Assembly (NCBI GenBank): GCA_009192285.1
Contig: CM018604.1
Span: 4,993,746-5,057,745 of the forward strand
Direction of reading: 5' to 3'
Source: Morchella semilibera
Taxonomy: Eukaryota; Ascomycota; Pezizomycetes; Pezizales; Morchellaceae
DNA: 64,000 nt
The notes under the pieces are model-generated. The model had not been told where the DNA came from and did no database searches. It was given only the letters and a program-made list of their open reading frames with translations. Within the stretch, counting starts at the first letter, position 1; each line of letters begins with the position of its first letter. Of this stretch, positions 4,522 through 59,907 are shown one piece after another. A program made the position numbers and the translations under genes.

Positions 4522-4947
4522 GAGTTATCGCCAATTACGTGTGCGTCAATTATTTTACACCCAAATATGGATAGATTCTTTGACGACGAGGAATATGGTT
4601 GGGGTTTAAAGAAAGATTGGGGGGATAGAGCAAAGGTTTTGGTTCAAGAATTATGGGAGATATCCTATAAATCAATAACATTACACAATGTCTCAGCAAG
4701 TAGTTACCTATCGCCAAAACGAACATTGAATCCTGAAACTCAAAATTATCATCGGAGATTCAAGAAACAAAGACTCAATCCTACAGTCATTGCTGATGAG
4801 CTGAGCTGGTATTTATTTTGGTTAAATAACAATATTATGGTGGATAAATTAAAGACAGTTATATTTCCTGGTTAGCAATTAAGGCCTTGGATGCATTTTC
4901 TGTTCCTGCAATGTCAGCCGAATGTGAAAGGGTTTTTAGTAGGTAAG

Positions 4948-34747: not shown

Positions 34748-34865
34748 CCTCATGTGTTTAACATCCTGTTATAGGTAGCTGGAGGTATCCCAAAGTCAGA
34801 AAGAGACTTTTAGAGATCTTGGTGTGCCTTACTCATGATATCCAGATTCTGATATGGATTGAAGT

Positions 34866-35247
34866 TCAACTCTTCGACGGATATGCCTGTTTTCCAAAAT
34901 TGTAGATAAACCAGATTGCGGTGCAAACGAGGCTAATAAATGCCTGGGATATATCATTAATAAAACCAGGATACCTGGCCCCACGAATTTTAACACCTTT
35001 GTAATACTTTAGAAATATTACTTCTACAATTTCAGGGGCCCAAAGGTGAAGCAAGCCTGTCTAGTGGCTGTCAGCACCTTGCCGAAGGCTCATAGAACGG
35101 TGGAGAGAGCTCTTACAGTATAATAATCAGGATCGCTTATAAAACGATCATTCTCGAGGAGAAAGTACACCTTCTTACCCTTTGCCTCTAGCGTTTTCTC
35201 CTCGCTCAAGCTATACAAAAAATTCTTCGACATGCAGTCCTTCACTG
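34866..35247 (-). pseudogene. DUF6532-like relic, interrupted upstream by a MITE-CAT
   Basis: The minus strand reads GKKVYFLLENDRFISDPDYY at about 35183-35124 and APEIVEVIFLKYYKG ... RYPGFINDISQAFISLVCTA at 35045-34930. This lines up with the DUF6532-like gene inside the large Plavaka element (VKYLLAGDRFNCDPDHY, then APQIPRFIVYCYYK ... KHPEFSGYINRTFLSV). In the fungal DUF6532 family such blocks are typical; function unknown. The two blocks are in different frames or exons. It looks like a relic lying just outside the large element. Confidence 0.6.
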
Positions 35248-35384
35248 CATCAGCAAGACTTCATTTGTCTCCTGATATCTCCTGAGCTTCAGGAGACTCA
35301 AAAAATATCAAGGAGTCTCAGGAGACTCTCAGGAGACCTGGGAGACTGTTGGGAGACTCCAGTCACAAGTTGAGTTTGCTGATG
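35248..35384 (+). mobile_element. MITE-CAT copy 13
   Basis: 137 bp with a perfect TG duplication, next to the DUF6532-like relic. Confidence 0.87.
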
Positions 35385-35505
35385 TGTAAAAACAAGGTGC
35401 GATCTCACCCGCGAACAATTGATTTAAACCTAATCGAAGCAGTTAGCGAAGGCTCACTAAGTCCTCCGAAAGGCGCGCGAGACACTCACGTCGCCCCTAG
35501 CTAAC

Positions 35506-35681
35506 TGTGACGGAGTAACCAGACGCAAAGTAGAAGGTGACAATGATGATGTAAAAGGACTCAAGAAACATAGTCTACTCGATGGGGAGACCCACGAAGA
35601 CAGGAACAATGCCGGGTAGGCACAAGCACAGGCACCGGCAAAGGCAAAGGCAAGAGCAAGGGCGCAAGAGTGCAGGGCAGA
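35506..35681 (-). mobile_element. LTR-A, left part, split by the 17.4-kb Plavaka element
   Basis: First 176 bp of an inverted LTR-A, ending ...GGGCAGA. The sequence resumes with GAGAGAGTGAGG at 53079. Together the parts give about 630 bp, the full LTR-A length. Confidence 0.88.
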
Positions 35682-35835
35682 CATCAGGAAAAAAATGTGG
35701 CTGCGTCTTGTGGCGCCCAGGCGCCACAATTGGCACAAGACGTCAAAGACGTCAAAAACCAATAGCTTACCTGCATCTCCGCGCCCCCGCGCCGCAAGAT
35801 GATCGGGGTCTCCCAAGATGTAATCCGGGGAAATT

Positions 35836-35902
35836 CCGACGAAAACCCGTCTTTTGACGAAAATTAGTCGTTTGACCCCGCCGCCTGACTCGTCGTCTGA
35901 CG
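35836..35902. repeat. Left subterminal repeat of the large Plavaka element
   Basis: Short repeats CCGACGAAAAC, TTTTGACGAAAA, AGTCGTTTGACCCCG, ACTCGTCGTCTGACG. In reverse complement they resemble the array at 52750-52970, as expected for subterminal transposase-binding repeats. Confidence 0.55.
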
Positions 35903-36056
35903 CTTTTACTTAGTGCTATAGTTTAACTTTGTCATCTGGCCTTGTCGAAAGACTATAGTACTTCGTTTCATTTCGTCGATAGCCTGTAATTTCATCTTTT
36001 TACTAATTTATGCCCTTTTAACATCTCTTTCCTCATCATTCACTCTCTAGTTTCCC

Positions 36057-36687
36057 TGTCCCGGCGTCTTGGCATTGTCCTGACAATTCGGTAGGAGATG
36101 TACGTTTGCGATTGTTAGGGAAATGTTAAGTGAGAGCGGGGAGTGCGAGGTGGAGGCTGTCGTCATTAGGTTCTGGGAGGTTCGATGGCGTGATGGATTG
36201 GTAATGTAGAATAGCGGAGATGGTTGGGAGGATTACGGGGTGTGGTAGCAACGGGTTTCTATGAGGTTCTATGAGCGAGAGTGTGAGTCATAACGGACTA
36301 GGGAAGGAGGTGTGTTAAATAGCGAGGATAGATGTTTTCCTTAGTTCTTTCTTTCTTTTCTCTCTGTCTCGTCTTCCTGTTATGTCAGTACATAGGAATC
36401 TACTCCTAATTCCAAGCCATAGCCTCTCGTATCCAATACTTGATTCTCTGACGAGAGGAAACTCATAGCAACTCTCCTCGTTCTCGTTGAGGTCCATCTG
36501 GTCCTCACTTTCCCTGCTCTGTGTCCTTGTGCCCTTGTCCTTGCCTTTGCCTTCGCCGGTGCCTGTGCTTGTGCCTGCCCGGTGTTGCTTTTGTCTTCGT
36601 CAGTCTCCTCGTCCCTAGACTGTGCTCCTCGGGTTCTTCTGCGTCATCATTGTCATCTTCTTCTTTGCGTCGGGTTACTCCGTCACA
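36057..36687 (+). mobile_element. Solo LTR-A inside the large Plavaka element
   Basis: 631 bp, TGTCCCGG ... CGTCACA, with the perfect 5-bp duplication TTCCC at 36052-36056 and 36688-36692. A good reference copy for the family. Confidence 0.92.
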
Positions 36688-36930
36688 TTCCCCATGCTTT
36701 ACTTGCGACGAACCTCGACGTTAAATGGCTCAAATTCTGACGATGTTCTGACGATATCTAACGGAAATCGTGCACGCACAACGATCCGGTGTAGGTTCTT
36801 AGACGGGAGTTTTGCACGTCGAGAGGATATCTGACGTGTGTAGATGACCACAGACGGCTCTACATACATCACCTTTGAGTCGAGTGATCTCACATCAAGG
36901 ACTCTAATGCATTCAAATATATATGTACAT

Positions 36931-38913
36931 TTATCGTCGAACGCGCTTTCTATTTGGCCTAACTAGGTTCCGTCTTTTACGTCCTCTTTTATTCATGATA
37001 TCCCCTGTAGTCGACTCACCGTGTTCCTCCTCCTCATTGTCTTCCTCCTCCGTGACGTCCCTGGGTGCTTCGGATTCATTCACTTCGTTCACCTGACTTT
37101 CTCCCTGATCACTTTCGTCGTAAGCTTCATTCATACAATAGTCACCTGCCTCGCCGTCGTTGTTTTCCGACTCTTTATTAGAATCTAGAACCAGTTCTTC
37201 ATCGTCTTCCAAGCCCTCGCCTATCTTTCGTCGGAGATCCGCCAACAAACTGTTCACCCCCGGGTCGATGATTGCCTCCCGACTCTCTCTGCCGACGATT
37301 TTCGCGGTGGTCGTTCTATTGATCCGTTTTGTTATTTCACAGCGGATATTAGCTACCATCAAACCTGACGATTCCTCGTGGGGAAACGATCGTTCCCACG
37401 TTCGCATATGTTTTTCAAAGATCACTAATTCGAGACGTCATTAGATACTATGTTAGGAAAGGCTTTATTATGGAGTCACCTACCGCCACAATAATCCCTA
37501 TTAAAGACCCCGTTCCTCCAGTTGCTACCCCCTAAGATGCAAACCCTGAGGGCGTGGTAGATCGCCGTAGATACTAAACAGATAAAAACGTCCGATTGAT
37601 ATATCCGCTAAACTCTGGATGCTTAATAGCGATCCCACGATTAGTCTTGTAGTAGCAGTACACGATAAAGCGGGGTATCTGCGGTGCGGCAAAGTGCCAT
37701 TGAGCAGGCTGTTTTCGTCAGTTGGAAACACACATTTGATAAACGACGAATTGCATGGGATATATAACTTCGTAGTGGTCAGGATCACAATTGAACCTAT
37801 CCCCTGCTAATAGATATTTGACCCGTTCTTTGGCCATCTCTGTGGTAAGACCTTTCAACTGGTAGTACGATTTGATGATACTCTTCGCCTTTCCCATCAT
37901 GTGAGAGCGAGCACGTTGATGGGAAAAATCGTACCTGACTCTCGAGGCTCAAAGTTAATTCGCCCTCCTGATCCTCCGTTGCCCGATCCCATGACTTTTT
38001 GACCATACTTCTCAGCTCAAGTACTGAAGGGAGGGGATTGGTGAAAAGGGTATCTTTCGTTATATCTCATCCTGCCTTCTCCAATAAAACTCTGTGAGAA
38101 ACGTCAAATCGCCCAAGGTCTCTCCGTCTCTCACCTCTTTTGACTGTAAGGAGCCCCGAAGAAAGGTCAATCGACGATTCCCTCCTCCCTGAAACCGACC
38201 TTTCTCCTTGACTATGTTCCTGACTGCTGCTTGAGGGTGGCCTAGACGACCCGGGACTCAGTGATCGACTTTCGAGGGCGATTAATGTGCTTCCCCGACG
38301 GTGGCGGCTTGGTGTAGGGAGTGCGTCTCCTGGCGAACACTCCTGTGGTTGGGAAGATTTGGTGCTCTGGCGATAGCGGTGGCCCGGTGCAGGCGATTCA
38401 TCTTTCGACAAACCATGGCGTGATTGAGATGATCTCATGTCCTGGGGACGACGGCGGATAGGTGTAGGTAATGTGCGTTTTGACGCAATGTCCTGAGTTT
38501 GAGGTATTTCTGGTGGAGGACTTGAAAGTGGGGAGGTGGACGCTCTTCTAACAGGAGGCTTCCTGACTTTGGCTAAAGACCTTTCTCCATGAAGTTTTAA
38601 ATCTATATTTGTTGAGGCTCTCTGTGATGGTCCCTCGTCACCCGAAGTTTGTGACTCGTCGTTCACCCATCTGCGTCTTTGCGAGGAGGATCCTGATGTT
38701 TGGTGCTCGTCATTTACCGCTCGCCTACGTGTCTGCGAGGAAGGTCCTGAGGTCCACCTCATCGATTCGCCTGGAAAAGTGCTGGGAACCTCCTGTGATG
38801 AGTGCACCTGTCATCGCCCGGATTTGCTTACCCTTTTTCCCTCTGATAACAGGCGTTTGTTGAGAAGGCGTAGTTTCGCTCCCGTTGAATGGATCTGGCA
38901 GTCGTCGTGGCAT
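36931..38913 (-). CDS. DUF6532-like cargo gene, six exons, one apparent frameshift
   Basis: Function unknown. My model on the minus strand: exons 38913-38832, 38770-38135, 38023-37935, 37888-37769, 37708-37484 and 37424-36931; all five introns keep phase. The N-terminal 240 residues are disordered and Ser/Arg/Pro-rich (RRRAVNDEHQTSGSS, RRPQDMRSSQSRHG). The DUF6532-like core follows: LELRSMVKKSW, KSYYQLKGL, VKYLLAGDRFNCDPDHY, APQIPRFIVYCYYK, then STAIYHALRV and NWRNGVFNRDYCG. The tail has EKHMRTWERSFPHEE, an acidic run and a basic end (RGRKRRNLVRPNRKRVRR). In exon 5 the frame shifts near 37575, between TFLSV and STAIYHA, so this copy may be damaged or the intron model wrong there. The homology is from memory of the family and from the relic at 34866-35247; not searched. 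Confidence 0.6.
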
Positions 38914-39277
38914 CGTCGGAATCTGATCATCAGAATATGGTCGTCGTATGTTACAAAGAGTTGGAAATCAACCTGGGGGGGCGGGGGTATGAGCAAAAAG
39001 GGGTGGCTAGGGATGGGGATGGGGGTGGGGCGGAGTGACATACGAGTGTAATAGCGAAATAGGATGGACGGTGATCTCATTAATACATACATGTAGGGAT
39101 CTAAGTAAGATATCTGACTAGCAGATGGTAAACGCTCCACTATCCTAAACGCCTAGTGTGAATATAACTAGCTATCCAAAACGAAATAGCGCAAAAGACT
39201 AGCACAGTTCTGTATTCTAATGTAAGCTCAAGCAGTCGATACATTCACATGTATATATCGACGTACCACTAGGATGA

Positions 39278-39908
39278 TATCCCGGCGTCTTGGCATTTGC
39301 TCCGAAAGTTCGGTAGGCGATGCATGGTTGTGGTTGTTAGGGTAATGTTAAGCGAGAGTGGGGAACGCGAGGTGGAGGTTGTCGTCATTGGGTTCTGGGA
39401 GGTTCGATGGCGTGATGGATTTGTAATATAATTAGCGGAGATGGTGGGAGGAATACGAGGTGTGGGTGCGATGGGTTTCTGTGGGTTTCGATGAGCTGAT
39501 GTTTGAGTCATAAGCGGACTGGTGGAGGAGGCGTGTTAAAAAGCGGGGATAGATGTTTTCTTTAGTTCTTTCTTTCTTTTCTCTCTGTCTCGTCTTCCTG
39601 TCATCTTAGTACATAGGAATCTACTCCTATTTCCAAGCCATAGTCCCTCGTACCAAATACTGGATTCTCTGACGAAGGGAAACCCATAGCATCTCTCCTC
39701 GTTCTAGTTGAGGTCCATCTGGTCCTCACCTTCCCTGCTCTGTGTTCTTGTGCCCTTGCCCTTACCTTTGCCTTCGCTGGGGCCTGTGCTTGTGCCTGCC
39801 TGTTGTTGCCTTTGTCTTCGTCAGTCTCCTCGTCCCTAGACTGTGCTCCTCGGGTTCTTCTGCGTCATCATTGTCATCTTCTTCTTTGCGTCGGGTTACT
39901 CTGTCACA
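39278..39908 (+). mobile_element. Solo LTR-A inside the large Plavaka element
   Basis: 631 bp, TATCCCGG ... TGTCACA, with the perfect 5-bp duplication GATGA at 39273-39277 and 39909-39913. Confidence 0.9.
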
Positions 39909-40120
39909 GATGATATATTATGCCATAGTCCAGCAACCAAATCCACAAACGACCAAATCCAAATCCAAAAAAAAAAAAAAGCAGAAGCTAAGGAAAGCGA
40001 TGAGCATATCAAAAAAAGACTAAGGCAAACAAAGGGTTGAGCTACTGAAAAATAGAGAAACGTAGAGAAGTCACAAAAGGATCAAGAAATAACTTACAAA
40101 CGACGAAGCTAGAGGGAGAT

Positions 40121-40754
40121 TGTCCCGGCGTCTTCGCATCTGCCCCGACAGTTCGGTGGGTAGTGTACGGTTGTGGTTGTTGGGGAAATGTTATGCGAGA
40201 GCAGGGAATGCGAGGTGGAGGGTGTCGTCATAGGTTTCTAGGAGGTTCGATGGCGTGATGGATTGGTAATGTAAATAGCGGAGATGGTGGGGAGGATTAC
40301 GAGGTGTGGTAGCGACGGGTTTCTATGGGATTCTGTGGATGATGATATGTAGTCTTGGCGGACGGGTGGAGGAGGTATGTTAAATAGCGGGGATAGATGT
40401 TTTCCTTAGTTCTTTCTTTCTTTTCTCTCTGTCTCGTCTTCCTGTTATCCCGGTACATAGGAATCTACTCCTATTTCTAAAGCCATAGTCTCTCGTACCA
40501 AAGACTCGATCCTCTGACAAGAGGATACTCATAGTATCCCTCATCGTTCTCGTTGAGGTCCCTTCGGTCCTCACTTTCTCTGCTCTGTGCTCTTGTGCCC
40601 TTGCCCTTGTCTTTGTCCTCGCCGGTGCCTGTGCTTGTGCCTGCCTGGCGTTGTCCCTGTCTTCATCGGCCCCCTCGTCGAGTACACTGTGCTCTTCGAG
40701 TCCCTCTGCGTCATCATTGTCATCTTCTTCTTTGCGTCGGGTTGCTCCGTCACA
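40121..40754 (+). mobile_element. Solo LTR-A interrupting the second cargo gene
   Basis: 634 bp, TGTCCCGG ... CGTCACA, with the perfect 5-bp duplication GAGAT at 40116-40120 and 40755-40759. Confidence 0.9.
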
Positions 40755-41672
40755 GAGATTAGTTCTACCCTTCGTCTGTTTCCCTCGCCATACTACTACT
40801 ACTCGAAGGAACAGGTGATAAACTTGAAATGCTTGAACAATCATAGTTGGATATGGTAGGAGGTGGAGGAGCCCGGACCAAAGACGACCACCGGCTAGGC
40901 TGGTCATTCGACGACCACTGACCAGGCCGACTAGGAGTCGATAGGGAGGAAGAGAGGGGTGGAAAGGAAGGGGTGTTGGGCGTGATTTTGGTGTAGAAGA
41001 GGACGGGGGAGGGGCTATAGCTGTTAAGGGAATAGGTGCTGCAAAACCGGGCCTCTGGCGATTTGAATGTATCAATATCTCTATATACCGACGAAACACC
41101 AGACTCTGGTAATTCGATAGGGTTATGCTCTAGTGAGGATGATGATAGGGATATAGTAGTAAGTTCTGACGACGGCAAAAGGGCCAGGTCAGGTGAAGTT
41201 ATTGATTTAAGTCCTATCTTAATTGGTGTTGAAGAAGGCCCTGCCCCCATTCGTGCAATTCTGCTGACATATAAGGATATGGATTAGCCGTCTATCTTCT
41301 TTCTTTCCTTCGGTCGTCCGACTCACGTTGTAGCAGTCCCCCTCGTTTCCAGTGGCAGTGCCCTCCCCTTCCCCGTCCCACTCCTCCCGCCCATGTTATT
41401 CCCCTTCCCCGGCGCCTTCCCCTTACCCTTCCCCTTCCCCTTCCCTTTCCCCTTTGCAAGTGCCTTTCCCTTTCCCTTGCTCTGGGGGTTCTTGTCCCCC
41501 TCGTCATCCTCCGGGTCGTCATCCCCCGAATCGTCATCCTCCGGGTCTTTGTCCTTTGGGTGGTCGTCTTCCAGGTCGGCCTCCGGGTCGTCATCGTTCT
41601 CTGGGTCGTCCTCGTCCTGCTCCTCCGGGATCTCATCCACGTCAGTTGTGGGGTCTGTCAGGGCTGGGCTGT

Positions 41673-42298
41673 TGTCCCGGCGTCTTGGCATCGGTCCCGA
41701 GGATTTGGTAGTCGAAGCACTATTGTGCTTGTTCAGGAATAGTTAAGCGAGGGAGGGGTGTGCTAAGGAGGGTTGTCGTCATAGGTTTCTAGGAGATTCG
41801 ATGGCGTGATGGATTGGTAATGTAAATAACGAAGATGGTGGGGAGGAATAGGAGGTGTGGTAGCGATGGATTTCTATGGGATTCTGTGAGTGATAGGGTG
41901 AGTCATGATAGCGGACTAGTGGAGGAGGTGTGTTAAATAGCGGGGATAGATGTTTTCCTTAGTTCTTTCTTTCTTTCCTCTCTGTCTCGTCTTCCTGTCA
42001 TCTCAGTACATAGGAATCTACTCCTATTTTCAAGCCATAGCCTCTTGTATCCAATACTTGATCCTCTGACAAGGGGAAATTCATAGCATCTTTTATCGTT
42101 CTCGTTGAGGTCCATCTGGTCCTCACTTTCCCTACCCTGTGCCCTTGTGTCCTTGCCCTTGCCTTTGCCTTCGCCGGTGCCTGTGCTTGTGCCTGCTCGG
42201 TGTTGTCTTTGTCTTCGTCAGTCTCCTCGACTGTACTCCTCGGGTTCTTCTGCGTCATCATTGTCATCTTCTTCTTTGCGTCGAGTTACTCCGTCACA
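41673..42298 (+). mobile_element. Solo LTR-A inside the second cargo gene
   Basis: 626 bp, TGTCCCGG ... CGTCACA, with the perfect 5-bp duplication GCTGT at 41668-41672 and 42299-42303. Confidence 0.9.
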
Positions 42299-43083
42299 GC
42301 TGTTTCTGCCCGGACACATGATCTTGGAGTTGAGTCGGTCGACAGCTAGTTGCTCCTTCATCATTTCGCTCCAACTTTCACGAAAGTAGGGAAATGATGG
42401 AGGTGGTGGGGTTTGCCTCCCCTGGTTGTCAGCTTCATGGTAAATTACCATTAGGCGTACTTTGGACAACGCAGCGCAAGCCCGAAGCCACACCTCGACG
42501 TCCTTGTCGGTCTTTAGGAACATATAATTCTGCATGAGTGTATACCTCCTTACAGGTCTGGGTGGATTTTTGGGAGAATGAGCGAACTCCTCATCGAGGA
42601 CGAAGGAGCCTATCAAGTGACGAATCGGCGGGTATGAGCGCTGATACAGTATCTTATTCTGGCTTCTGAGATGGCGCGCTCGGCTCTGATTATTCTGACG
42701 ACTTCCGATATATACGGCCCGCGGAGCCTTATGTGACTCAGGATGGGGGTGTCGTTATACGTTTTAGGGGTCCAGTTAGGCATCACCCACTGCGTGTTTC
42801 TAACAAAAGGAGCGACAGGAGTGGTCCGGAAAGCCCTTCCCGCAGCGACATCCAACGTTGACCTACGATACCGACTTGGAACGACTTGAGATATTCCAAC
42901 AGGCCAGTCAAATAGGGCAGGGTCGAGGGTGGGTAGGGGCGGAGTTTTATCTGCCTCTTCATTGGTCTCCTCGGCATAGTCGTCCGCTCCATCTTTCCTA
43001 ACCTTTTGTTTGACGCCCTTGTGCTTGGTTTTTTCTTTTGGCTGCTTTTCTTTTAATCGACGAGCCTTGTTCCTCTCTGCCTC

Positions 43084-43220
43084 CATCAGCAAACTCAACT
43101 TGTGACTGGAGTCTCCCAACAGTCTCCCAAGTCTCCTGAGAGTCTCCTGAGACTCTTGGATATTTTTTGAGTCTCCTGAGGCTCAGGAGACATCAGGAGA
43201 CAAATGAAGTCTTGCTGATG
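43084..43220 (-). mobile_element. MITE-CAT copy 14 (inside the second cargo gene)
   Basis: 137 bp, reverse orientation, perfect TC duplication. Confidence 0.87.
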
Positions 43221-43829
43221 TCAGCGAACTCTTCCTTTTCTGGCTTAGACTTTCGCTTGCAGAAGTCTTGAAGTATAGAGTTGAATGCCTTTCTGACGAG
43301 AGAGCCCTAATAGGTTGCTCGGTCGTCTGGCTGATTCAAGAGATGGGGGTATATGGGCCATGGCGGATGTGCTTCAAGTCGTTGCTCTACTTTATCCCAC
43401 TCGGCTTGCTCGGCCTGTTTCCTGCTTTTGATGACCTTGCGGAGTATTTAGTCACGCATATCGTTCATCATATGATGCCATTCAGCCGGAGTTTTGCCCA
43501 GCATTGCTTTACAGTCGGAGGCAGTTAGCGCCTTCGCCCCCAGCATATCCTGACAAAACTTCTTAGCAACCCTTCAGCATCCACAGTAGGATCTCGGGGC
43601 AGGGTCCCTACAGCGTCCCGGCAATCTTCTAACGTCATGCGCAGTATCCAAGGGTCTTGGACCAGCTTGTTCTTGGCCCTTTGGCCACGTTTTTGTCGTG
43701 GTAGCGGCGGCGGCGTCGGCGTTGCAGAATCGCCGGGATTTCCACGAGTATTTGGACGTTTGCTTGGGTCTTGGGATTGACCTCTGACTCAGGTAGGAGT
43801 CTTTTGTGACCTCTTCTGGGAATTGCCAT

Positions 43830-44353
43830 TACGACTAATTTGAAGCGTCGGAGGTTTCGTCGGATGTTTGCAGGTTTCGTCGGAAGATGGGGAATGTGGT
43901 AAGAAGATGAAGAAGATATCCAAGTGAAGATGGGGCATCCGACGAGATATATAGAGAGCCGAGATCCTCAAAAGAAGAATTATAGTGTGGGGCTCAATTG
44001 GACAACTCCTGTCGAAGAACAAAGCAAACAAAGGAAACATAGTGAATATAAGGCATCTCTTCTCCGGATGTGGCAAAGAGCTTCACCAACTTTGATGAAT
44101 GGTCGGTTGTATATGAGGTTTGTCGGCGAGAGGTGGTGAGCTTAGGCGTCGTTATGAGGTTTGATATCAGATGATTCAGAGTCTTGGCACCTACCGACTA
44201 GGCGTCGTTTGACGAATGTCTTGGCTTACGCCTACCAACGTCGATAGGATATCACCGCCTGCCAGTGCTCCACCCCCCTTTGCCTAATCGTTCCACCATA
44301 TAGGCTCTCTACCACGACCTCATGAACTCAATACCACCGAACCTATCAAGAAG
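43830..44353. promoter_or_regulatory. Divergent intergenic region between the second cargo gene and the Plavaka transposase
   Basis: About 520 bp separating two head-to-head genes, so it should carry both promoters. CGTCG/CGACG words recur (43855-43885, 44195-44215). No specific promoter element could be assigned. Confidence 0.4.
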
Positions 44354-47320
44354 ATGTTTTGCCCATACTGCCCCAGAACATACCGCCGCGTAGGGAATCT
44401 CACGAGGCACATTGCCTCCCTCCACGCAAACGAGGAGTGCGAGGACAAGAACGACCTGCATCAGGATCCAGAGGAAGGCGCAGGACCAGTGGAGATTGGG
44501 GCAATTGCCAATTCTGATGAGGAATGGACGGATTCTGAGGCCGACTCGGTACAAGAATCTGACTTCGATGCCTCCGACGATCCCTGCGCGGGAGTACAGC
44601 TAGGGCAATCGGAGAGTTACCGGGACCATTTGAAGGATGACTGGCAACCTTGGGCCCCTTTCAAAGATGCCGCGGAATGGCAATTAGCCAGATTCTTCTT
44701 AGAGCACAAACTAACGTCGTCATCAATTGACGACTACTTTAATGAGGGTCTACACAAGGCTAAGGTGGAGGAACGAACGTTCCAATCCGCCTACACCTTC
44801 CAAAAGAAACTAGAGGAAATGGCCGGATTTCCACCAAGTTTCAAATATGGTACAGTCGGGGACGGAAATGGCAAAACGACCGAGTTCTATTACCGGGATC
44901 CCGTCGAGTGTACCAGGTATCTACTAGCCCAAGAATGCTATGTGGAGGAGATGGTGTATGTCCCAGTAAAGGTATACAATGAAAAAGGACTGCGGCTTTA
45001 CTCGGAGATGCATACGGCGGATTGGTGGTGGGGGATGCAAGAAAGACTTGCACCTGGAGCTACCGTCGTTCCTATCATCTGTAGCTCTAATGTAACTCAT
45101 CTGACCAACTTCTCGGGGGACAAGAAAAGCTGGCTCGTATATATGACGGTAGGCAATATCCCAGGCAAGGTACGGTCGAAGGCCTCGAGCAAAGCGCATC
45201 TTCTCTTAGCCTTTCTGCCGGTTCCGCCGAAGGTAATCGGAGATGCGGCGTATAAGGAGAAAATGCGATTACGGGTGTCGGAAACATTGAAGATGGTTAT
45301 GTCAGTTATCCTCGAGCCTCTAATCAACCTCAACCAGGACTCGGGGGTCATAATGGATTGCGCGGACGGCTACCAAAGGCGGTGCTGGCCTGTGCTCGCG
45401 GTATGGTTGGCTGACTATATGGAGAACTGCAACATCTTGAGCACCAAATTCAACATGTGCCCCAAGTGCGAGGTTCCTGTTGATAGACTGGGAGAATACC
45501 AGACAGAGCCGACGGAGGCTTACCCCCTGAACCAGAATAACTATCGGCTGATGTACGATGATTACATCGCACGGAGGTCGGTTGACCTGGGGACGAGGGA
45601 TCAGAAGAGGCGGATAAAGGTGTTGAAACAGTGGTTCGACGCGCGTGGGATACGACCAACCTACAATCACTTCTGGGACCTACCCTACATTAACGCTTAC
45701 GACCTTCACAGGCCGGATATGCTTCACGTCGTCTACCTGGGAATTCTAAAACATCTGATGGAGTGGTTGGAGGACTTTCTGAACGAGCATAATCGTTTGG
45801 GTGATTTCAATATGATCTGGACCCTCATGCCTCCATATCCCGGCTTTGTGCAACCGACGAAACCATATCAGGCGATTACTCAATGGCAAGGAAAGGAGAT
45901 GCGAAACTTCCTGAAGATAATCCTACCAGCTCTAGCATCAGCCCTCAGAAGGCCAAAGCCAAGTCAGGTAGGGCCTTTTAAGAGAGCCCTCAGATGCGTC
46001 AGATCCCTTGTCAACTGGGTGCTTGTAGCTCAGTACCGTTCCCATAACAATGCAACGATAGATATGTTGGAGGGATATCTAGAGGATTTTCACAGGACCA
46101 AGGGCGTATTCAGGAAATACCGAGCGAGCAGGAAAACTGAGAAACCTGCAGCACAACGACGAAGGGAGCTCCTACAGGAGTACGATATAGAATTAGCGAA
46201 TCTCAACGGATCATCCGTTGCTAGACAAAGACTTGTCAGTGATCAAAGGCTAAACATGTAGGCGGAAATAGACGAAATTCTACGAACAGAATCGCACTTC
46301 AACTTTCCAAAGATTCATTTGATGAGCCACTTCACCGAACATATCCGGCAGTTTGGCAATATTCCCGACTTTTCGATGGAATCTTGCGAGATGGCGCACA
46401 AGGACCAGATCAAAATACTATATCGTCAGAGCAATCGCGTGAATCTGACGATACAGATATTGCGCACGTTTAATAGGGACTACACATTCGCCATACAGGA
46501 GCTAAATCTGATACAGCTAGCTCGAGAGGGGTTTTCTACTGCAGAACTTATCGACAACCTTCGACTAGGGCCCCCAGCGTTGAGAAACAAACGACGAAAG
46601 GCCAGACGAAATTAGGAGGACCTCTGCGACGATCCAGATATGGAGCTGGAGATGATAGCACCATTAAGCCTAAGATCGGAAGAGGCAGAGATTGAAAGGA
46701 GGTCAGTTAGCAGCAGGGAGCAAACGACAACGGTGGGAAGGGTGGTTATACCGGGGGCAGAGGCAAGGCTCGGTTTCTATCTTGGTTGTTACTTCAGGAG
46801 GGAACTCAATGTCAGCGCTGAGTATATGCCAGGAAGAATTTGGGAGTGGCAGGTGGAGGTTTTCAGGCAACTCAACGTGCCGGTACTGCTACATGGCGAA
46901 GGCGACGAAAGAGTAGTCCATGCACTTCGCACTACAGGTAGTTTAGACTACAGGGGGTCAGCGCCAAGAAAGGATTGGGTTTGGTTTCAACAGGGGCCAC
47001 AAGGACTAAACGATCCACTACAGGGGCTTCGTCTAGCAACGCTCCTGAATGTGTTGAAGTTGAAAGACCCGGGACGGAGGAGAGCTAGATTACTCGCGGT
47101 GATCCGACCTCTAAAACCGGACTTTCAGGGAGCCACAGATGAGAATCACGGCCTGGTGAGGGTATCACTGAGAGCGGCATCATCCGACGATGTTTGGGTA
47201 GTTGGTATCAAGTGTATCGTTGGGGCCGCACATCTAGTGCCGGAAACACCGTCGGAGGGGACAAGGAGGTGGCTAGTCAATAGCACAATCGACCTGCATA
47301 CGTTCAACTTGATATACTAA
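44354..47320 (+). CDS. Plavaka-type transposase with two in-frame TAG codons
   Basis: DDE-fold transposase of the Plavaka group (distant relatives of CACTA/En-Spm). The ATG at 44354 opens a C2H2 zinc finger (CPYCPRTYRRVGNLTRHIASLH, residues 3-24), then an acidic linker. The long conserved region includes WWGMQERLAPGATVVPIICSS and the MDCADGYQRRCWPVLAVWLADYMENC block (near residues 335-360). CPKCEVPVDRLG, YDLHRPDMLHVVYLGILKHLMEWL, HFNFPKIHLMSHFTEHIRQFGN and the C-terminal RDYTFAIQELNLIQ follow. One frame runs 989 codons to the stop at 47318-47320, broken only by TAG at 46259-46261 and 46613-46615. Both could be CAG (Gln) changed by C-to-T, as repeat-induced point mutation does. The end is WLVNSTIDLHTFNLIY. 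It lies centrally in the 17.4-kb element. Probably the inactive source transposase. Confidence 0.85.
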
Positions 47321-48339
47321 TGTCGTATTTGGTAAGCTCCGTCCTCAATAAGTGATCTAGGATCGTCAGGTATTAATAGGTGTATAGGTGATGCAGGGGG
47401 TTAATCTTTCGTTGAATCAACTTGATCTTTTAGGAGTGTGAAGGCGACGAGAACCTTAGGGTATTGATTATTCGAATGCAACACTATTAATGTATTTTTA
47501 AAGTACAAACGACGAATGAATATACTACTCCTCTTTCGATAGTGCTAGAAACAATATGGCAGTGCCGAGAAACATCTATTTGATGCGCCGGCAATGTTTT
47601 TGTTCTGTTTCATTTCGCAGCGGCGCCAGTCATTATCCGCGTTTCCCCCAGATATGTACGTCTTTATCCACGTGGGTAGTGATAGTAGTGTAATAAGACG
47701 TGGAATCTAGATGCCAGATGAAAGACGAGAATCAGAAGACGTGAACCTAACGACGAAGGTCGGAAGAAGGAGCGAAGGGGCGAATGGTCTTTAACGCCGG
47801 AACGGAAAGCTCTGAGCAGAAAGCAGGGCTAGGGTTTGAAAAGAGGGATTGTAACCCCCATGTTTTCGCCTTTATCATCTCTACACGCCTTTATCACTAC
47901 AGCTTCACCCTTACGGCTTCATCTACCCCCCATCCTCCGCCTTAATCTCCATCTTGAATATCTTCCTACGTCCTGCAATTCACATCTGTACTAACGTTTA
48001 TATAGACTTCAATCCCCTAGAATTACGCTTAAAGAAAACGACGCTTAAAGGTGGGATAACCCCCACTTAGTCTTTTTTGGATTGATACACGTCCCGACGA
48101 GGAAGGGAAGGCAAACAGCAGTCCCTCAAATGACATCTAACTTGGGTACTATTAAATGCCGCTGTACGGGCAGCCGCGGGTACTAATACAGAGCACTGAC
48201 ATGTACACTGCTGGATGCTTTCCCGACCTTCTGAGGATGCGTGTATGCGTCTGTCGATTTGTGAAAAGTTTACCTTGAGGTCGGGGCCATGGGAGCACCC
48301 GTCTGAAAAGCTCAATGTCCCACGCCTAAGCAGCGAAAA
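47321..48339. other. Non-coding 3' region of the large Plavaka element
   Basis: No supported gene. Contains scattered CGACGAA words (47505-47515, 47750-47760), like those elsewhere in the element. Small frames here overlap on both strands and look accidental. Confidence 0.4.
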
Positions 48340-48639
48340 CATCAGCAAGCCTATTCAACCCTACCGGAGGCCCGGGAGGTGTGGGAGACGTTCGGAGACA
48401 CCCGTCAAACTTTCGATCTCCAGGGGCTTACCCGCCCGTACGAGGGCCTCCTGAGCCTTTGCAGGAGCCTCCGAGCCTTCAAGAAGGCTTAGCGGGCTCT
48501 CCTGATGCTAAGCGGCGCTCTCCTGGCGCCATCTGGAGGCTTTGTAATATTCTCTCCCAAGAGGCTACGAGATATCGTAGACCTCCACACTAGTAAGAGG
48601 TTTTCGTTTAGAGAGGCTTCAGAGACGCTCTGTTATAAG

Positions 48640-48975
48640 CCCAAGGATGAGTAGGGCGTTCTCGTGAGGGCTCCCCAAGCCCTCCTGCTATCTCCGGAGG
48701 ATTAAGCGAGATCTCCCAAGCTCTCCTGTAATCCTGCCAATCTCCTGGGCTCACCTGAGGGCTCGCCAAGCCCTCCTGATATCTCCGGAGACTGCTGATG
48801 ATTAAGCGAAACCTCCCAAGCTCTCCTGCGATCCCTGTCAATCTCCTGGCCTCTCCTGAGGGTTTCCCAAGCCCTCCTGATATCTCCGGAGACTCTTGAA
48901 GATTAAGCCAGATCTCCCATGCTCTCCTGTAATCCCTGCCCATCTCCTGGGCTCTCCCAATATCTCCGAGGACTT
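48640..48975. repeat. Left subterminal tandem repeat of Pla-2
   Basis: About three imperfect units of roughly 110 bp, each with AAGCCCTCCTGATATCTCCG and GATTAAGCGAGATCTCCC-like words. Confidence 0.65.
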
Positions 48976-49075
48976 TCAAACTATTACTAATCTACTGATA
49001 CCTCAAAATCCACTTTGATTATTCATACCATANAGGCCTTCAGGGCCCTGCGGAAAGGGGTGAGCTTATAACATG

Positions 49076-51429
49076 CGCTGATGGCTATGTGCGCCTATGT
49101 TATCCGATACTATGTGCATGGATGCGGATCAACCAGAACACGCCTCGCTGCTAAACCTCAACAATCAGGCCTGCCCTAGGTGCGAAGTTGATTTCAAGGG
49201 CCTAGGGAGCCTTCAAGAAAACCCGCCACGCATTCAGGGAGCGATATATCGAAATGGTAGAGCGTTATAAGGAGGATATGTCAGATACAGCACCCATTGA
49301 ATACCTAGTGTCGAAATCCTTCAAAACTCTGTACAATGCTTTGTGGGCCTTGCCGAAGGCTCAGGTGTATGATCTTCACAAGCCAGATATGTTGCATAAT
49401 ATTTATCTCGGCCTATTGAAACATATGATGGAATGGACTCAACCGTTTTTGAAAAAAACACAATCGGCTAGAGAATTTTGATCGGGCTTGGGCGTCCATT
49501 AAGCCTTACCCAGGGCTTGCTGTACCAAATAAGGCTTATCGGGCAACTGCTCAATGGCAAGGTAAAGAAATGCGTCATCTCGGCCGGATAATTCTAGGAG
49601 CCTTTGCAGTGGCTCTTTGGAACCCCCCAAAAGCTTCGCAGAGCAATGTCGCGGCATGTTCGGGAAGGTAGGAAGTGATTAGTAATGAGTTCGGGTTTCT
49701 TAGGGATGAGTTATCGGGATTTAGTATGTGGATCGGTTGGTGGTGCGGGGAACTGTTCTTTGGGTTTCTATGGGTTTCCGTAGTATGGATTAGTAATCGG
49801 TGAAATTGGAAGGTTATATATATATGGCTAGGATTTCCTTTGTCTTTCCTTTTCTTCTTTCCTTACGCAACCTCCTGTTATCAACCTTTTCCTTTAGGTT
49901 TCTGTTCCCGTTCTCGTTCTTGGTTCTCTATTCTGTTCGATAATAAAATATACTTGGTTCTATACTCCACCGCGCCCTGTCTTCGGTTGTGCCCCTTGGT
50001 ACCCCGCTCCTGAACCCGTCCGCCTCGGTTAACCCTTGGCCCTCTGTCGTCCCTGGCCCTTGTCCATGACCGTGATCCGAATTATCTACTGGTGCCTTCG
50101 CGTATACGTTGAAATCAGAGATTCCCTGTGGACCCTCTGCCCGACCCTGCTCCTGCTATAATCCTCTCGCCCTAGTACCCCGACCCCGTCCCGTAACAAG
50201 CAACTTCGGGAGATCCTTGAGGTGTGTTCGGTCACTAATCGATTTCCACTTGATGGCACAGTACACTACGCATACAAAAGAAACACTAGACTATCTTCAA
50301 GGGTATCTCGAAGATTTCCACAAGTATAAGGATGTGTTTCTGGAATTTAGAGCCGATAAACGAACAAGGAAAGAGGCAAAGGATCAAACAAAGGCGCTGC
50401 AAGGCTCGGGAAGCATTGACAGAGGCCTGGCGGAGCTTGAGGAAATTCGCGAGGCTTCTCATTTCAACTTCATTAAAATGCATCTTCTTTCACACTTCCG
50501 GGGGCATGTAGAGCGATTTGGTAATATTCCAATGTTTTCAACCGATGTGAGCGAGTTAGCTCATAGGCAACAAATTAAGATGGCTTATGCAGCCTCCAAT
50601 AAGGTCGACGCAACAGTTCAGATTCTCGGTTACCACTCAAGGCGTATGGCTATAGAGATACGGGTCTTAAATCTAAAAGATATCGTTGTCAGTCTTCCAG
50701 AACATTACGAGGGCCTCCCAAGCCATCGAGAGAGCCTCCGGGGCATGTTGGAAGTATTCAAAAACGAGGACCCACAAAGGACAAACGAAAGATTCCTAGA
50801 CGATGATAAACACCCGGAACCTAGGATGTCGACCCCCGACGGTGGACCCCACATATTATCTGATATCGCCGATATGATTAAAATCAATAGAAGAACACTA
50901 GCAAGAGTGGTGTCGGAATATGGTCAGGGCCTGAGCCGGGGAGAACAAGGCTTATTGAGCCTTCTGGAGTGCCTGGTGGGGTGCTTTAAGTGCCTACAGG
51001 TGCCAGTATCAATTTTTCAGAAGCCTGACAGTTACGAGATACACAATATACGGTGTACGGGAGAGGCATTATTTAGGAAAAAGGTCGACTCGAAATGATT
51101 GGGCATGGATTAAGGTGGCCACAACGGAGCCGTAGGGAGCCTTTCAGGGACGCCTACCAGGGCTTGTACGAGCAATATTCAAGATACGTGACAGTATATC
51201 GACGAAAACATATCAGCTTTGTCTTGTAGAGCTACTGGAAGCCAAGGATAGGGGTCTTCCAGACGGCTCACACGGTCTTCTTAGAGTTGCGAGGCGCTCT
51301 CGGCAAAGGTTTTGGGTAGTTAATATCAGTAGTGTTTTGGGAATGGCTCATTTGTTCGAGCTGGGACAGGGTCAATGGCTTGTGAACACGAGGATAGATT
51401 TGAGAACGTGGAATGAATTCGATATATAG
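49076..51429 (+). pseudogene. Truncated Plavaka transposase of Pla-2, split by LTR-B
   Basis: Begins at ADGYVRLCYP, matching the ADGYQRRCWP block of the 44354 transposase, so about the first third of the protein, including the zinc finger, is missing. Then come VYDLHKPDMLHNIYLGLLKHMMEW (49360-49435), LRCVRSLIDFHLMAQYTTHT and LDYLQGYLEDFHKYKDVFLEFR (50225-50355). HFNFIKMHLLSHFRGHVERFGN (50460-50525), ASNKVDATVQILGYHSRRM and an end at WNEFDI (51429) complete it. An LTR-B lies between residues corresponding to KASQSN and the LRCVRSL block, and several frame changes and stops occur. The relationship to the larger transposase is clear, but the copies are well diverged. An ambiguous base (n) is at 49033. 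Confidence 0.75.
49647..50198 (+). mobile_element. Solo LTR-B inside Pla-2
   Basis: 552 bp, TGTCGCGGCATG ... GTCCCGTAACA, with the perfect 5-bp duplication AGCAA at 49642-49646 and 50199-50203. Defines the full length of the family. Fossil. Confidence 0.88.
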
Positions 51430-51689
51430 TGACAATGTCTCTGGTGGCCTGGGGAAAGGTACAAGAGGCCTTCATAAAGGCTCGAGTGACTTCAGCTGGC
51501 ATAGAATGTATTTAGAATAAAATTAACATGATAGTAAACGAAACAATATGATCTAGATCGGGGACTCATGAGGGCTCCAGAACCCCTTATAAAGGCGCAG
51601 AAGGCCAGAAGCTCCCGGGCGGCGGGGTAGCCATAAAGAGCTGTATATGTTTTTTGCGTGAAAATAGGTTGTTGGTGGCCTCCGAAACT

Positions 51690-51950
51690 TACTAATCAAA
51701 GCTCGGAAGCCCTCTGGAAGGCTCGGGAGGCGAGAAACAATTAGCGAGGTGTCAGGAGAGGAGGGTAACAGAAGGCTCAGGGAGCCCTCTAGAAGGCTCA
51801 GGAGGCTACATACAATTAGCGAGGTGTCAGGAGAGGTAAGGAGGGTAACAGAAGGCTCAGGAGACTCTCTAGAAGGCTCGGGAGGCCATCGGGAGGCTCG
51901 GGAGGCAACAAATAGTTAGCGAGGTTATTAGGAGAGACGGGAGGGTAATT
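51690..51950. repeat. Right subterminal tandem repeat of Pla-2
   Basis: Three imperfect units of about 80 bp with AGAAGGCTC(A/G)GGAGGC, ACAATTAGCGAGGTGTCAGG and GGAGGGTAACAGAAGGCTCA words. Confidence 0.65.
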
Positions 51951-52013
51951 GCCTTGGCAACGGCCTCCGGAGACCCAGTCAAGCCTCTGGAGAGAGTTTG
52001 AATCTTGCTGATG

Positions 52014-52749
52014 AAGCACTGAGTCAGGATGCAGGATTAATCTACTGGTCGGAAGACCAATGCCTGCCTATCATTCTCGTCTTTCGCGAGCTTGCTCGAT
52101 AGCCAGACTCAGTCTTTGAACGGTGCAACTCGACCTCTCCCGATCAATCCGCATCAAATGGTCCTCGCATGAGGGTCCAGAGAACGACACAAATCTGAAT
52201 TAGGGAGTTCAATTAGTCTAACGTCTTTTTTTTTTTTTTTAGATATATATCCCTACGGAAATCCATCACTGAGTCGAGCACGGCAGCGAGGAATCGAGCA
52301 CGTAGCTAGGTAGGCTTCTACTAGTCGTTGTGGTATTCTATCAGGGGAGGTATCATCTTTGGGAAATTATTTTTAATATGGGTTCTAAGAGCGTCGAAAA
52401 ACCGATATGCCTTTGTTTCGAAACCTCAGGATCGCGACAAAACAAATTTTCGATGTTGAAAACGCCCCCCTTGTATAAATATAGATATAGAATACGGTGT
52501 TTCATAGAGATTTAATCCTTGAAATATGGCAATATAGAATCAGAAGGGTTTTCAGTATAACGACGCACCAAGAGCTTTAATCCAATAAACTTTATTCTCC
52601 AGAAGACTCATATGGGCATTATCGCTTGGTGAAAACATGTAGGACCGTGAGGCCAAATGACGGAGTCAATCAAGAGGATCTCGACGAGATCAAACTACTG
52701 TTCTGATATATCAAAGTGAAATAAAAAGACTAACTTTAACAACTAATCT
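52014..52749. other. Non-coding right part of the large Plavaka element
   Basis: No gene supported. A T-run lies at about 52229-52241. Confidence 0.35.
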
Positions 52750-52970
52750 AACGACGGGGCCAAGAGACAAAAAAAGACGATGAGTCAAAGGACGGGGTCG
52801 GGAGACGGGGTCGAAAGACGAGGAAAGACGACGAATCAAAGGACGGGGTCGAAAGACGGGGTTGAAAGACGATGAAAGACGACGAGTCAGAAGAAGGGGT
52901 CGGGCGACAAAGTAGAACAACGAGTCGAACGACGAACTGAGGTTGCAAGACGAGTCGAGAACTAAATTGT
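52750..52970. repeat. Right subterminal minisatellite of the large Plavaka element
   Basis: Irregular tandem repeat of GACGGGGTCG, AAAGACGA and ACGAGTCAAAGG words, about 11-40 bp apart. Complementary in sense to the left array at 35836-35902. Confidence 0.65.
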
Positions 52971-53078
52971 GTCATGAAACGCGGATTTGGTTCAAAAGAT
53001 ATGATTTTTGGAGAAAAGACGAGATTTGCACCTTGGGAGAGCCTCTTGCGTCTTGGCGAAACATATTTTTTCCTGATG

Positions 53079-53535
53079 GAGAGAGTGAGGACCAGATGGA
53101 CCTCAACGAGAACAATGAGAGGTACTATGGCTTTTCTCTTTAGAGGATGGAATCTTGAGGTACGAGAGGCTATGGCTTGAGAATAGGAGTAGATTCCTAT
53201 ATACCAAAATAACTGGAAGACGAGACAGAGAGAGAAGAAAGAAATAACTAAGAAAAACATTCATCCCCCCTATTTAACACACCTCCTTCACCAGTCTGCT
53301 ATGACTTATACGTCAGCTCATAGAAACCCGTAGAAATCCACCGCAACCATACCTCGTATTCCTCCCCACCATCTCTGCTATTTACATTACAAATCCATCA
53401 CGCCATCGAACCTCCTAGAATCCAATGACGACACTCCCTCCTTGACTCACCCCTCCCTCGCTTAGCATTAACCTAACCATCATAATAACGCTTCGATTAC
53501 TAAACCCCTGAGACCAATACCAAGACGCTGTGACA
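53079..53535 (-). mobile_element. LTR-A, right part, beyond the large Plavaka element
   Basis: Continues the LTR-A interrupted at 35681 (GAGAGAGTGAGGACC...) and ends GCTGTGACA. The outer flanks of the whole LTR (CTAGC/CTAAC-like and ATATC) do not match, so it may itself sit at an older rearrangement. Confidence 0.85.
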
Positions 53536-53627
53536 ATATCATGTTCATCCACCCTTGTTTCCCGTAATTATCTCTCCCTATTTACTTCTGCTTTCCTTGC
53601 CAACTGGTATTCCTTTAATTCCTCTAC
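53536..53627 (-). pseudogene. Distal piece of the Myb/SANT-like gene, beyond Gypsy-2
   Basis: The minus strand reads VEELKEYQLARKAEVNRER, a charged helical segment. It follows on from the segment at 59908-60090 once Gypsy-2 (target TCTAC/TCTGC) is taken out. It then stops. Confidence 0.4.
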
Positions 53628-54132
53628 TATCACGGCTCCACCTCTTGTACCCCGCCTTCCGCCAAGACGTCTTCGGAACAGGGTGGTTGGATAGTGTCGG
53701 TCGATGTCGGAAGTAGAATGATGGATTGGGAAGGAGCTCGGGTAATAGAATGTAAGCGCTAGGAAGGATGGGGTAGTGTAGGGTTGGAAGTATGGGTATT
53801 AGGAATAGTATGGGTGATACGGAAATGGGGGAGGTTCTATGGGATTCTATAATTATGAGTCAGCGGTGTGACGGGGTAGTTGTATATATAGTGTTCGTTC
53901 TTTCCTATGTTTCTGCTTCTCTAGGCAACGTCTTCTTTCTGCTAGCAATACATTACTTTGGCTTCGGCCCTCCTGTTCTTGCCTCGTCCCTGAACCTGAA
54001 CTTGAACCTGAACCTGAACCTGAACCTAAATCTGAACCTGCCTCGCCTCGGGTATCTCCTGAACCAATCCTATCCTTATCCTCGTCCCTGGATCTACCTC
54101 GCTACCCCTTAACCCAACCCCGCCCCGTTGGA
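53628..54132 (+). mobile_element. 5' LTR of Gypsy-2
   Basis: 505 bp, TATCACGGCTCC ... CCCCGTTGGA. It has a TATATATAGTG promoter-like box near 53883 and a hexameric CCTGAA-type repeat near 53996-54040. Confidence 0.88.
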
Positions 54133-55648
54133 CTACGTTGCCTCAGCCTTTGGCTCCCGAGATACTATTATGGCATCCTCTGGATCCTCGTTTATGATCG
54201 CCCCCGAACCTGTGATTACCGATCGCATCGCTAATAGCGATGTGGTTCCCGCTACCTGGGCTGCCCCCGCGGATGTCCCAGCTTTTACCGAACAATATAA
54301 CCATGACAAGGCCCTTCTTTTCGACCTGCTGGGATATAATATTTCTCGCATCTGGCACGAAAGGGACATGGCCCGCCTCGAGAGAGACACAGCCTTGAAT
54401 ACTGCCTCCGTTATCCCTGACCTTGAACAGCAAATCGCAAGTCTGGAGGGCCAGCTCGTGGAGGTCCGCCAGCTTAATAGCCTACTGTCGGCCCAGGTGG
54501 CTGCTCCTCCTCCTGCTCCTCCCGTTGCTCCTCCTCTTGCTTCCTCCGTTGTTCCTCCCCCTGTTCCTTCTGTTGCTTCACCTCCCGTTCCGCCTGCTGC
54601 CCCGCCTCCAGCTTTACCCTCAACCCCTCGCTCTGAGAAAGTTCCTGACCCACCTAAGTTTGATGGTAAGCGGGAGGAACTTCGCCACTTTGTTACACAA
54701 CTCCGCCTCAAGATGCTTGCCAACCATGATCGCTTCCCTGCTGCCCAGGCCCGCCTGGCCTATGCTATTAATCTCCTTTCAGGACGTGCCCTTGCCCAGG
54801 TAATGCCCCTCGTTGTTGGAGGACGCATCGACCTGGAAGACATCGAGGCCCTGATTACTATTCTGGAAACCGCCTTTGGAGATCCAGACCTCATTGCCAC
54901 CGCCGAGCGAGAAGTCGAACGTCTTACCCAAGGGGGCCGAGACTTCTCTACTTATTTCGCTGAATTCCAACGCTTGGGCGCTGAGGTTAGATGGAATGAT
55001 GAGGCTAAAAAACATGCACTGACTCAAGGGCTCTCTCTCGAGCTCCGCTCTGCCATGATCCACCACAACGTTCCTGCTGCTACCTCCGAATACGTTCTTT
55101 TGCTCCAGAAGCTAGATAATCGGCTTCGGGATGCTCGTGCCAGAGATCGTTCCTCCCCTTTTGCCGCCCGTCAGTCTTTTGCTTCCTCGGTTTCTCCTCG
55201 TTCTTCTGCTCCTGCTCCCGCTACTCCTGCTCCTCACCCCTCTTATTCTCCAGGTGGTGCGGTGCCAATGGATCTCTCTGGTGCCCGTCGCCCTCAATGT
55301 CGTGGGCCTATTACCCCTGCTGAACGTGCCTGCCGTGCCACTCAAGGGCTCTGCATGTATTGCGGAGGCCCTGAGCATTTTGCCGCTGAATGTCCTGCTC
55401 GCCCTGTTGTTCGTCCCGCTCGTGTTGCTGCTACTTCTGAGGTCGGTATACCTCCGGTTATGTCTGGGGCCGGCGCGCCTCCTGTTGTTAATCAAGCTTC
55501 TCGTCCGTCTTCTTTTCCTGGTTATGTTTTTGGGTTTCCTTTTGGTGCTTCTTCTTCTTCTGGCTCTGGTTCTTTGGGTTTGGGTTCTCCTGGTTCGATG
55601 TCGGCGACTGCCCCGGATCAGTCGGGTTTTCACGAGGACCTGTCTTAG
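54128..55648 (+). mobile_element. gag region of Gypsy-2
   Basis: Structural protein region: coiled-coil-like N-terminus, a Pro/Ala/Val-rich linker (about 54490-54630), the retrotransposon gag domain (from VPDPPKFDGKREELRHFV) and a CCHC zinc knuckle (CMYCGGPEHFAAEC). Cytoplasmic capsid protein in this family. Confidence 0.88.
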
Positions 55649-55677
55649 GTGGCTTAGGCCAGGTCCTCCCTCTTTCT

Positions 55678-59469: not shown

Positions 59470-59907
59470 TGTCGGTCGATGTCGGAAGTAGAATGATGGA
59501 TTGGGAAGGAGCTCGGGTAATAGAATGTAAGCGCTAGGAAGGATGAGGTAGTATAGGGTTGGAAGTATGGGTATTGGGAATAGTATGGGTGGTACGGAAG
59601 TGGGGGAGGTTCTATGGGATTCTATAATTATGAGTCAGCGGTGTGACGGGGTAGTTGTATATATAGTGTTCGTTCTTTCCTATGTTTCTGCCTCTCTAGG
59701 CAACGTCTTCTTTCTGCTAGCAATACATTACTTTGGCTTCGGCCCTCCTGTTCTTGCCTCGTCCCTGAACCTGAACTTGAACCTGAATCTGAACCTGAAC
59801 CTGAATCTGAACCTGCCTCGCCTCGGGTATCTGCTGAGCCGATCCTGTCCTTGTCCTCGTCCCTGGATCTACCTCGCTACCCCTTGACCCGACCCCGCCC
59901 CGTTAGA
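59403..59907 (+). mobile_element. 3' LTR of Gypsy-2
   Basis: 505 bp, same length as the 5' LTR, about 96 percent identical by eye. Confidence 0.88.

Follow-up and report, generated by a model that had tools for sequence, protein, structure and literature searches.

A decayed three-gene PlavakaB element in Morchella semilibera, with a transposase predicted to join a RAG1-like core to a BAH-fold tail

The stretch of DNA considered here (the window: 64,000 nucleotides of contig CM018604.1 of the morel Morchella semilibera, the contig being called C2 below) holds a transposon of the PlavakaB type with three genes: one for a Plavaka transposase and, both on the opposite strand, one for a protein with the domain DUF6532 and a middle gene, P2, for a protein rich in lysine and acidic residues. 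The window structure is an ordinary transposon insertion; its real interest lies in the recurrence of that gene set and in the predicted make-up of the transposase, a RAG1-like core with a BAH-fold tail. We consider it probable that the window element is an old, defective copy of a three-gene PlavakaB family of ~11.3 kb (the home family) with such a transposase, the mechanism proposed below included.

The element at the locus and its genes

Exactly two copies of the 13-mer CATCAGGAAAAAA are present in the window, at 35682 and, inverted, at the other end of the element at 53078 (Table 1), with GA duplicated outside both ends. The element splits a copy of a long terminal repeat (LTR), LTR-A, whose two parts map onto adjoining stretches of intact LTR-As with an overlap of exactly those two bases (25854-26029 and 26028-26428 on one of them) and, when joined, align full length with other LTR-As, gap-free at the junction. 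The parts thus abut as one LTR-A and are not two diverged copies; the exact inverted ends, the GA duplication and the single split LTR-A of the original prediction all hold good. This LTR-A lacks the 5-bp outer duplication that several others show (its flanks read CTAAC and ATATC), so the split LTR-A itself has an untidy history, and the missing duplication concerns the LTR, not the Plavaka insertion. Beside it, at 34749-35507, lies a fragment of the DUF6532 region of a second PlavakaB family (92-96% identity); the target area was therefore already a nest of elements. Without its later insertions the window element sums to ~11.04 kb, close to the ~11 kb that had been estimated and to the 11,260 bp of the copy on contig C17. 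The great size for which the element had been singled out is accordingly not a property of its family, the excess over ~11.3 kb being due to nested insertions.

A Plavaka transposase and at least two further genes, one DUF6532-like and one rich in lysine and acidic residues, had been predicted and are found. The Plavaka transposase domain, PF18759, is matched with E 4.4e-73, and the transposase of the C17 copy is a single open frame of 1028 codons; its closest relatives are morel proteins, with 61% identity in Morchella sextelata and, over 83% of the query, 63% in M. snyderi. An alignment of 19 proteins (17 of 35 homologues and two from loci) conserves D250, D342, C373/C376, H659/H663 and E683, with the exceptions that three rows lack the second D, one is gapped at the C motif and one ends before the H motif and E. 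On this conservation, C(2)C and H(3-4)H lie between the second D and the E, which is the residue pattern of PlavakaB. The last catalytic acid is read as E683 from conservation, not from coordinates; E519 (in KEMR) was dropped in its favour, since both the invariant H(3)H and the range of the RAG1 alignment put the last E after 659-663.

Structure models predict for the transposase core a DDE fold of the RAG1/Transib type with a CCHH zinc site, the fold expected of the CMCT clade (RAG1/Transib-like transposases), and for the C-terminal domain a BAH fold. Sequence profiles are silent on both: searched against the PDB, the core found no relative (zinc-finger chains only, E 0.23-0.46) and neither did the BAH segment, and no BAH family (sequence profile PF01426) appeared among the profile matches of the 19 full proteins or of the 11 segments that make up the alignment of the domain.

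The DUF6532 gene is degenerate in the window copy, where PF20149 is matched at C2:5031358-5031663 with E 6.4e-5; the C17 copy gives E 8.6e-8. The P2 proteins of families 2 and 3 (described below) align well with each other. Home-family P2, several copies of which contain stops, is linked to them by position and by a profile match (probability 78%, E 1.8e-5); another fragment gave no match. Homologue sets for these accessory proteins are thin: two proteins for DUF6532, and for family-2 P2, in a search scored on the 8000 best-sharing candidates, eight, of which four are from Morchella records (one M. snyderi, three M. conica) and four are others. Between family 3 and an element on contig C10, nonsynonymous divergence (dN) of P2 is 0.57 and synonymous divergence (dS) is beyond estimation, which is weakly compatible with purifying selection. 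The close copies of family 3 are uninformative in this respect (dN/dS of 0.43-0.97 by NG86; by YN00, with only two comparisons obtained, transposase 1.63 and P2 0.64).

Table 1. The element, its target and the insertions nested in it, in window positions
Feature	Position	Strand	Basis or remark
PlavakaB element, whole window copy	35682..53078	+	17,397 bp including nested insertions; ends and other copies
Left terminal inverted repeat, CATCAGGAAAAAA	35682..35694	+	
Right terminal inverted repeat	53066..53078	-	
Target duplication GA, left copy	35680..35681	no strand	
Target duplication GA, right copy	53079..53080	no strand	
Target, 5' part of split LTR-A	35506..35681	+	
Target, 3' part of split LTR-A	53079..53535	+	
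DUF6532 gene, several exons, degenerate	36931..38913 (approximate)	-	PF20149 matches
P2 gene, interrupted by an LTR-A and by a 137-bp insert	41323..43829 (approximate)	-	
Plavaka transposase gene	44354..47320	+	in-frame stops at 46259-46261 and 46613-46615
Predicted BAH-fold C-terminal domain of transposase	46688..47317	+	residues 25-234 of the final open stretch
Subterminal tandem repeats, 51-bp unit x2.7, containing GACGGGGTCGAAA	52773..52908	+	
Solo LTR-A, later insertion, duplication GGGAA	36057..36687	-	absent from C17
Solo LTR-A, later insertion, duplication TCATC or ATCATC	39280..39908	-	comparison with C17
Solo LTR-A, later insertion, duplication ATCTC	40121..40754	-	comparison with C17
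Solo LTR-A inside P2, later insertion, duplication ACAGC	41673..42298	-	comparison with C17
MITE-like later insertion inside P2, ~137 bp	43084..43220	no strand	gap in C17 alignment
Deletion derivative of family-2 PlavakaB, 3,674 bp, CATCAGCAAG..CTTGCTGATG, duplication AA	48340..52013	+	comparison with C17; family-2 ends

A motif confined to the ends, GACGGGGTCG, occurs (with at most one mismatch) five times in the C17 copy, once near the left end on the reverse strand and four times near the right end on the forward strand, and nowhere in the middle 9,860 bp; it is one of four motifs tried and was picked after looking. GTCGAAAGAC is also enriched at the ends, GGTCGAAAGACG is too rare to judge, and AGACGACGA was discarded, being spread over the whole element. 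Family 2 has a repeat of its own, of 101 bp, present x9.6 near the left end and again as an inverted array (x5.2) between its two P2 genes, and so not purely subterminal; the family-2 copy nested in the window element has a 75-bp repeat x2.4 near its right end. The home-family copies other than that of the window have an inverted repeat with ~100-bp arms near the right end (C17 element near 10450-10705, corresponding to the window near 52380-52480), of which the window copy seemingly retains one arm.

Other copies and the recurrence of the gene set

In the window's own genome (56.76 Mb in 23 contigs), 24 matches to the left end and 43 matching pieces of the right end pair into five full-length copies, so that the CATCAGG ends bound the same interior at four places besides the window, as the original prediction implied. 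The lengths are 17,397 bp in the window, 11,260 bp on C17, 13,095 bp on C4, 13,126 bp on C19 and 17,388 bp on C1, the last containing 1590 consecutive N and having part of its interior duplicated; within the stretches fetched there are also a left part on C20 and a right part at C1:2725703-2726941. The P2 and transposase stretches of C17 are at least 98% covered in all four other full copies. The DUF6532 stretch is 92-100% covered in the window, C19 and C1 copies and merely 35% in the C4 copy, which has no PF20149 match. Positions ~1213-4857 of the C4 element, where the DUF6532 stretch lies in the other copies, are largely other DNA, although by identity this copy is young.

Where aligned, identity to C17 is 99.3% for C4, 99.2% for C1, 97.9% for C19 and 97.0% for the window copy. 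That last figure, with changes mostly of the C-to-T type (relative to C17: C>T 96, G>A 110, T>C 26, A>G 29), places the window copy among the oldest and shows it decaying as methylated DNA does. The most frequent context of these differences is CpG (54 + 59 = 113 of 261; CpA/TpG 17 + 26), which fits methyl-CpG decay better than repeat-induced point mutation of the CpA type, and the latter was rejected as the cause.

Target duplications match at three of the five copies (GA/GA in the window, CG/CG on C17, CC/CC on C19). The remaining two have CA/AA (C4, 1679515-1692609) and AA/CA (C1, 2029519-2046906): on the left of C1 and on the right of C4 lie adjoining pieces of one transposase gene, which belongs to another PlavakaB family, and their joint reads AA; the two remaining flanks, right of C1 and left of C4, have CA in common. 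Flanks have thus been swapped between the two copies, either through ectopic recombination (translocation) or through an assembly misjoin within the repeat, the N run in C1 leaving room for the latter.

Two further PlavakaB families share these three types of gene, arranged in identical order and orientation; family 2 has P2 twice. A full copy of family 2 (C2:1736376-1748077, 11.70 kb, duplication TA) sits inside another LTR-A; family 3, on C20, measures 10.68 kb and is flanked by GA/GA. Family 2 looks recently active because ends are 100% identical: at least 40 left-end matches include at least seven that are so over the whole query, and there are at least eight such right ends. Both ends were seen for nine of ten family-2 end pairs fetched, and the duplications of six of the nine match over 2 bp, none over 3.

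Counted over the genome, there are 51 matches to DUF6532 and 128 to PF18759, the latter merging into 71 loci. A Plavaka locus lies within 15 kb of 39 of the 51 DUF6532 matches and is divergently oriented for 34, where such partners number 0.68 on average (maximum 4) in 1000 random placements and 1.96 (maximum 7) in 1000 shifts by 30-150 kb; this comparison is qualified by non-independence among the copies of a family and by the duplication of some contigs. Seen from the other side, 36 of the 71 Plavaka loci have a divergent DUF6532 partner and 35 have none. A P2 match lies between the two in 20 of the 34 divergent pairs, by a shorter Plavaka list (also 71 merged loci) and with two of the 14 rows of the P2 search left out. 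Other evidence places ten of the 12 DUF6532 matches with no Plavaka match within 15 kb inside or next to Plavaka pieces (six less than 10 kb from a P2 match, one inside paired family-2 ends, two at ~0.7 kb from a family-2 left end and one in a truncated home-family copy), which leaves two, C20:31512 and C21:2592718, with no such pieces nearby. The contig pairs C9/C10, C12/C13 and C21/C22 show many matches at near-identical positions, which points to contigs that are duplicates or haplotypes, and some counts are therefore doubled; leaving out C10, C13 and C22 lowers the DUF6532 matches from 51 to 46 (the count of 34 partners refers to all contigs).

Relation to known systems, mechanism and alternatives

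In the accessible parts of Kojima 2025 (PMC12730594), PlavakaB is defined by CATCA..TGATG ends and 2-3 bp duplications, with a transposase that has D, D, E, C(2)C and H(3)H. The home family and families 2 and 3 all have these termini, and 2-bp duplications are seen directly at three of the five home-family copies and as reciprocal pairs at the other two; by termini, target duplications, PF18759 and residue pattern the element is a PlavakaB. The families in those parts of the paper were reconstructed from Agaricomycotina, none from Pezizomycotina being named, whereas the present host is a morel; the extra gene followed there is TET/JBP, whereas here it is DUF6532 and P2, with the predicted BAH-fold domain, and the paper nowhere uses the word BAH. 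No TET/JBP domain was found among the open reading frames scanned with Pfam, a scan that covered part of the frames. In the original prediction such an element was not known to have been described. For the DUF6532/P2 set and the BAH-fold domain that stands, as they are in no paper that open literature searches found, although the 2014 work of Iyer, in which Plavaka is reportedly named, may mention them. It does not stand for PlavakaB itself (PMC12730594) or for large elements, Plavaka-flanked repeats of up to 50 kb being on record in the available text on Amoebidium (PMC11244446). DUF6532 (PF20149) surfaced in the literature searched in a Ganoderma paper that, in its accessible part, merely lists domains, and no paper on a BAH transposase came up, judged by titles and the starts of abstracts.

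RAG1/RAG2, ProtoRAG and Transib produce 5-bp duplications, and chromatin reading in the RAG system sits in the PHD finger of a separate protein, RAG2. Here, in contrast, the predicted reader is fused to the catalytic protein. Plant CACTA/EnSpm elements, so far as the accessible text goes, share CA..TG ends, subterminal repeats and a transposase accompanied by another element-encoded protein (TNPD and TNPA), one that binds the subterminal repeats and is needed for excision (PMC2613891); their DDE transposase is placed in the same broad clade as Plavaka (PMC12730594). They differ in a 3-bp duplication (in the element of PMC2613891), against 2 bp here, and in making their proteins from transcripts of one gene, against separate, divergent genes.

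In the mechanism that we propose, the transposase would cut the element out and paste it in with 2-bp duplications, as RAG1, Transib and CACTA transposases do. DUF6532 and P2, which look like machinery of the element because other PlavakaB families of this genome have them too, in a constant order and orientation, may assist it, most likely by binding family-specific subterminal repeats in the manner of TNPA, or by lifting silencing. The BAH domain may bind nucleosomes and bias insertion to repeat-rich chromatin. Eight of 18 flank pairs examined touch LTR-A or another PlavakaB within 110 bp (C1 and C4 counting as two), which is a raw count and not an enrichment. A tentative generalization, to which we give not quite even chances, makes PlavakaB elements three-component and chromatin-homing: a RAG1-like transposase with a BAH reader in cis steers insertion into silent, repeat-rich chromatin, two dedicated partners assist, and DUF6532 is a transposon protein (an end-binding cofactor or an anti-silencer). 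DUF6532, an uncharacterised fungal domain, would thereby gain a class of role, with the prediction that its copy number tracks that of PlavakaB across fungi. A natural RAG1-type enzyme with a fused chromatin-reader fold is suggested, in which chromatin-guided transposition in the RAG/CACTA lineage would be testable in one protein, and family 2, apparently recently active, offers a practical test system in a fungus that is most probably edible and not a pathogen.

It is possible, if doubtful, that the accessory proteins mainly counteract silencing and have little to do with strand transfer, in the manner of VANC of the VANDAL elements of Arabidopsis, whose transposase is of the MULE type, unlike that of Plavaka elements. 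VANDALs likewise have extra genes and family-specific tandem repeats, and VANC, in the accessible part of the account, binds such repeats in noncoding parts of its own element and removes silent marks (PMC10398659). The PlavakaB families carry tandem repeats of their own, and the C-to-T decay of old copies, commonest at CpG, is as expected if they are methylated. Against this, an excision role like that of TNPA explains the repeats equally well (PMC2613891, as far as available). The combination of family-specific repeats with a further protein encoded by the element is reminiscent of both systems.

The original prediction called the extra genes cargo, and passenger genes gained from the host by this single element would suit proteins that are neither of known function and an element roomy enough to carry them. 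The C4 copy, having lost most of its DUF6532 gene, speaks for cargo and against element machinery. That DUF6532 and P2 are such passengers is nonetheless quite improbable and was rejected on the recurrence of the gene set: the same two types recur in two further PlavakaB families in equal order and orientation, a divergent Plavaka locus accompanies 34 of the 51 DUF6532 matches, ten of the 12 with no near Plavaka match are still in or beside Plavaka pieces, and the P2 divergences fit, if weakly, with purifying selection. That the window structure is an artefact, with two LTR-As misjoined around unrelated repeats or an assembly chimera, is scarcely credible: the missing outer duplication, the N run in C1 and the swapped C1/C4 flanks may be cited for it, but the two parts of the LTR-A meet exactly, sharing a 2-bp duplication, and four other places have the same ends and interior, C17 and C19 with matching duplications of their own.

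Other repeats in the window

The MITE-like insert in P2 (MITE, miniature inverted-repeat transposable element) belongs to a family of short repeats with CATCAGGAGACAA, which occurs ~10 times in the window (43084-43220 and 35248-35384 among them) and probably consists of Plavaka-derived MITEs. Between 2859 and 42298 the window has at least 13 copies or pieces of LTR-A, mainly solo LTRs, which start with TGTGACGG and end with GGGACA; several are flanked by 5-bp duplications. What looks like a younger LTR retrotransposon occupies 53626-59904, where two direct repeats of 504 bp, 96% alike, enclose ~5.3 kb with an interior that resembles 28837-33065.

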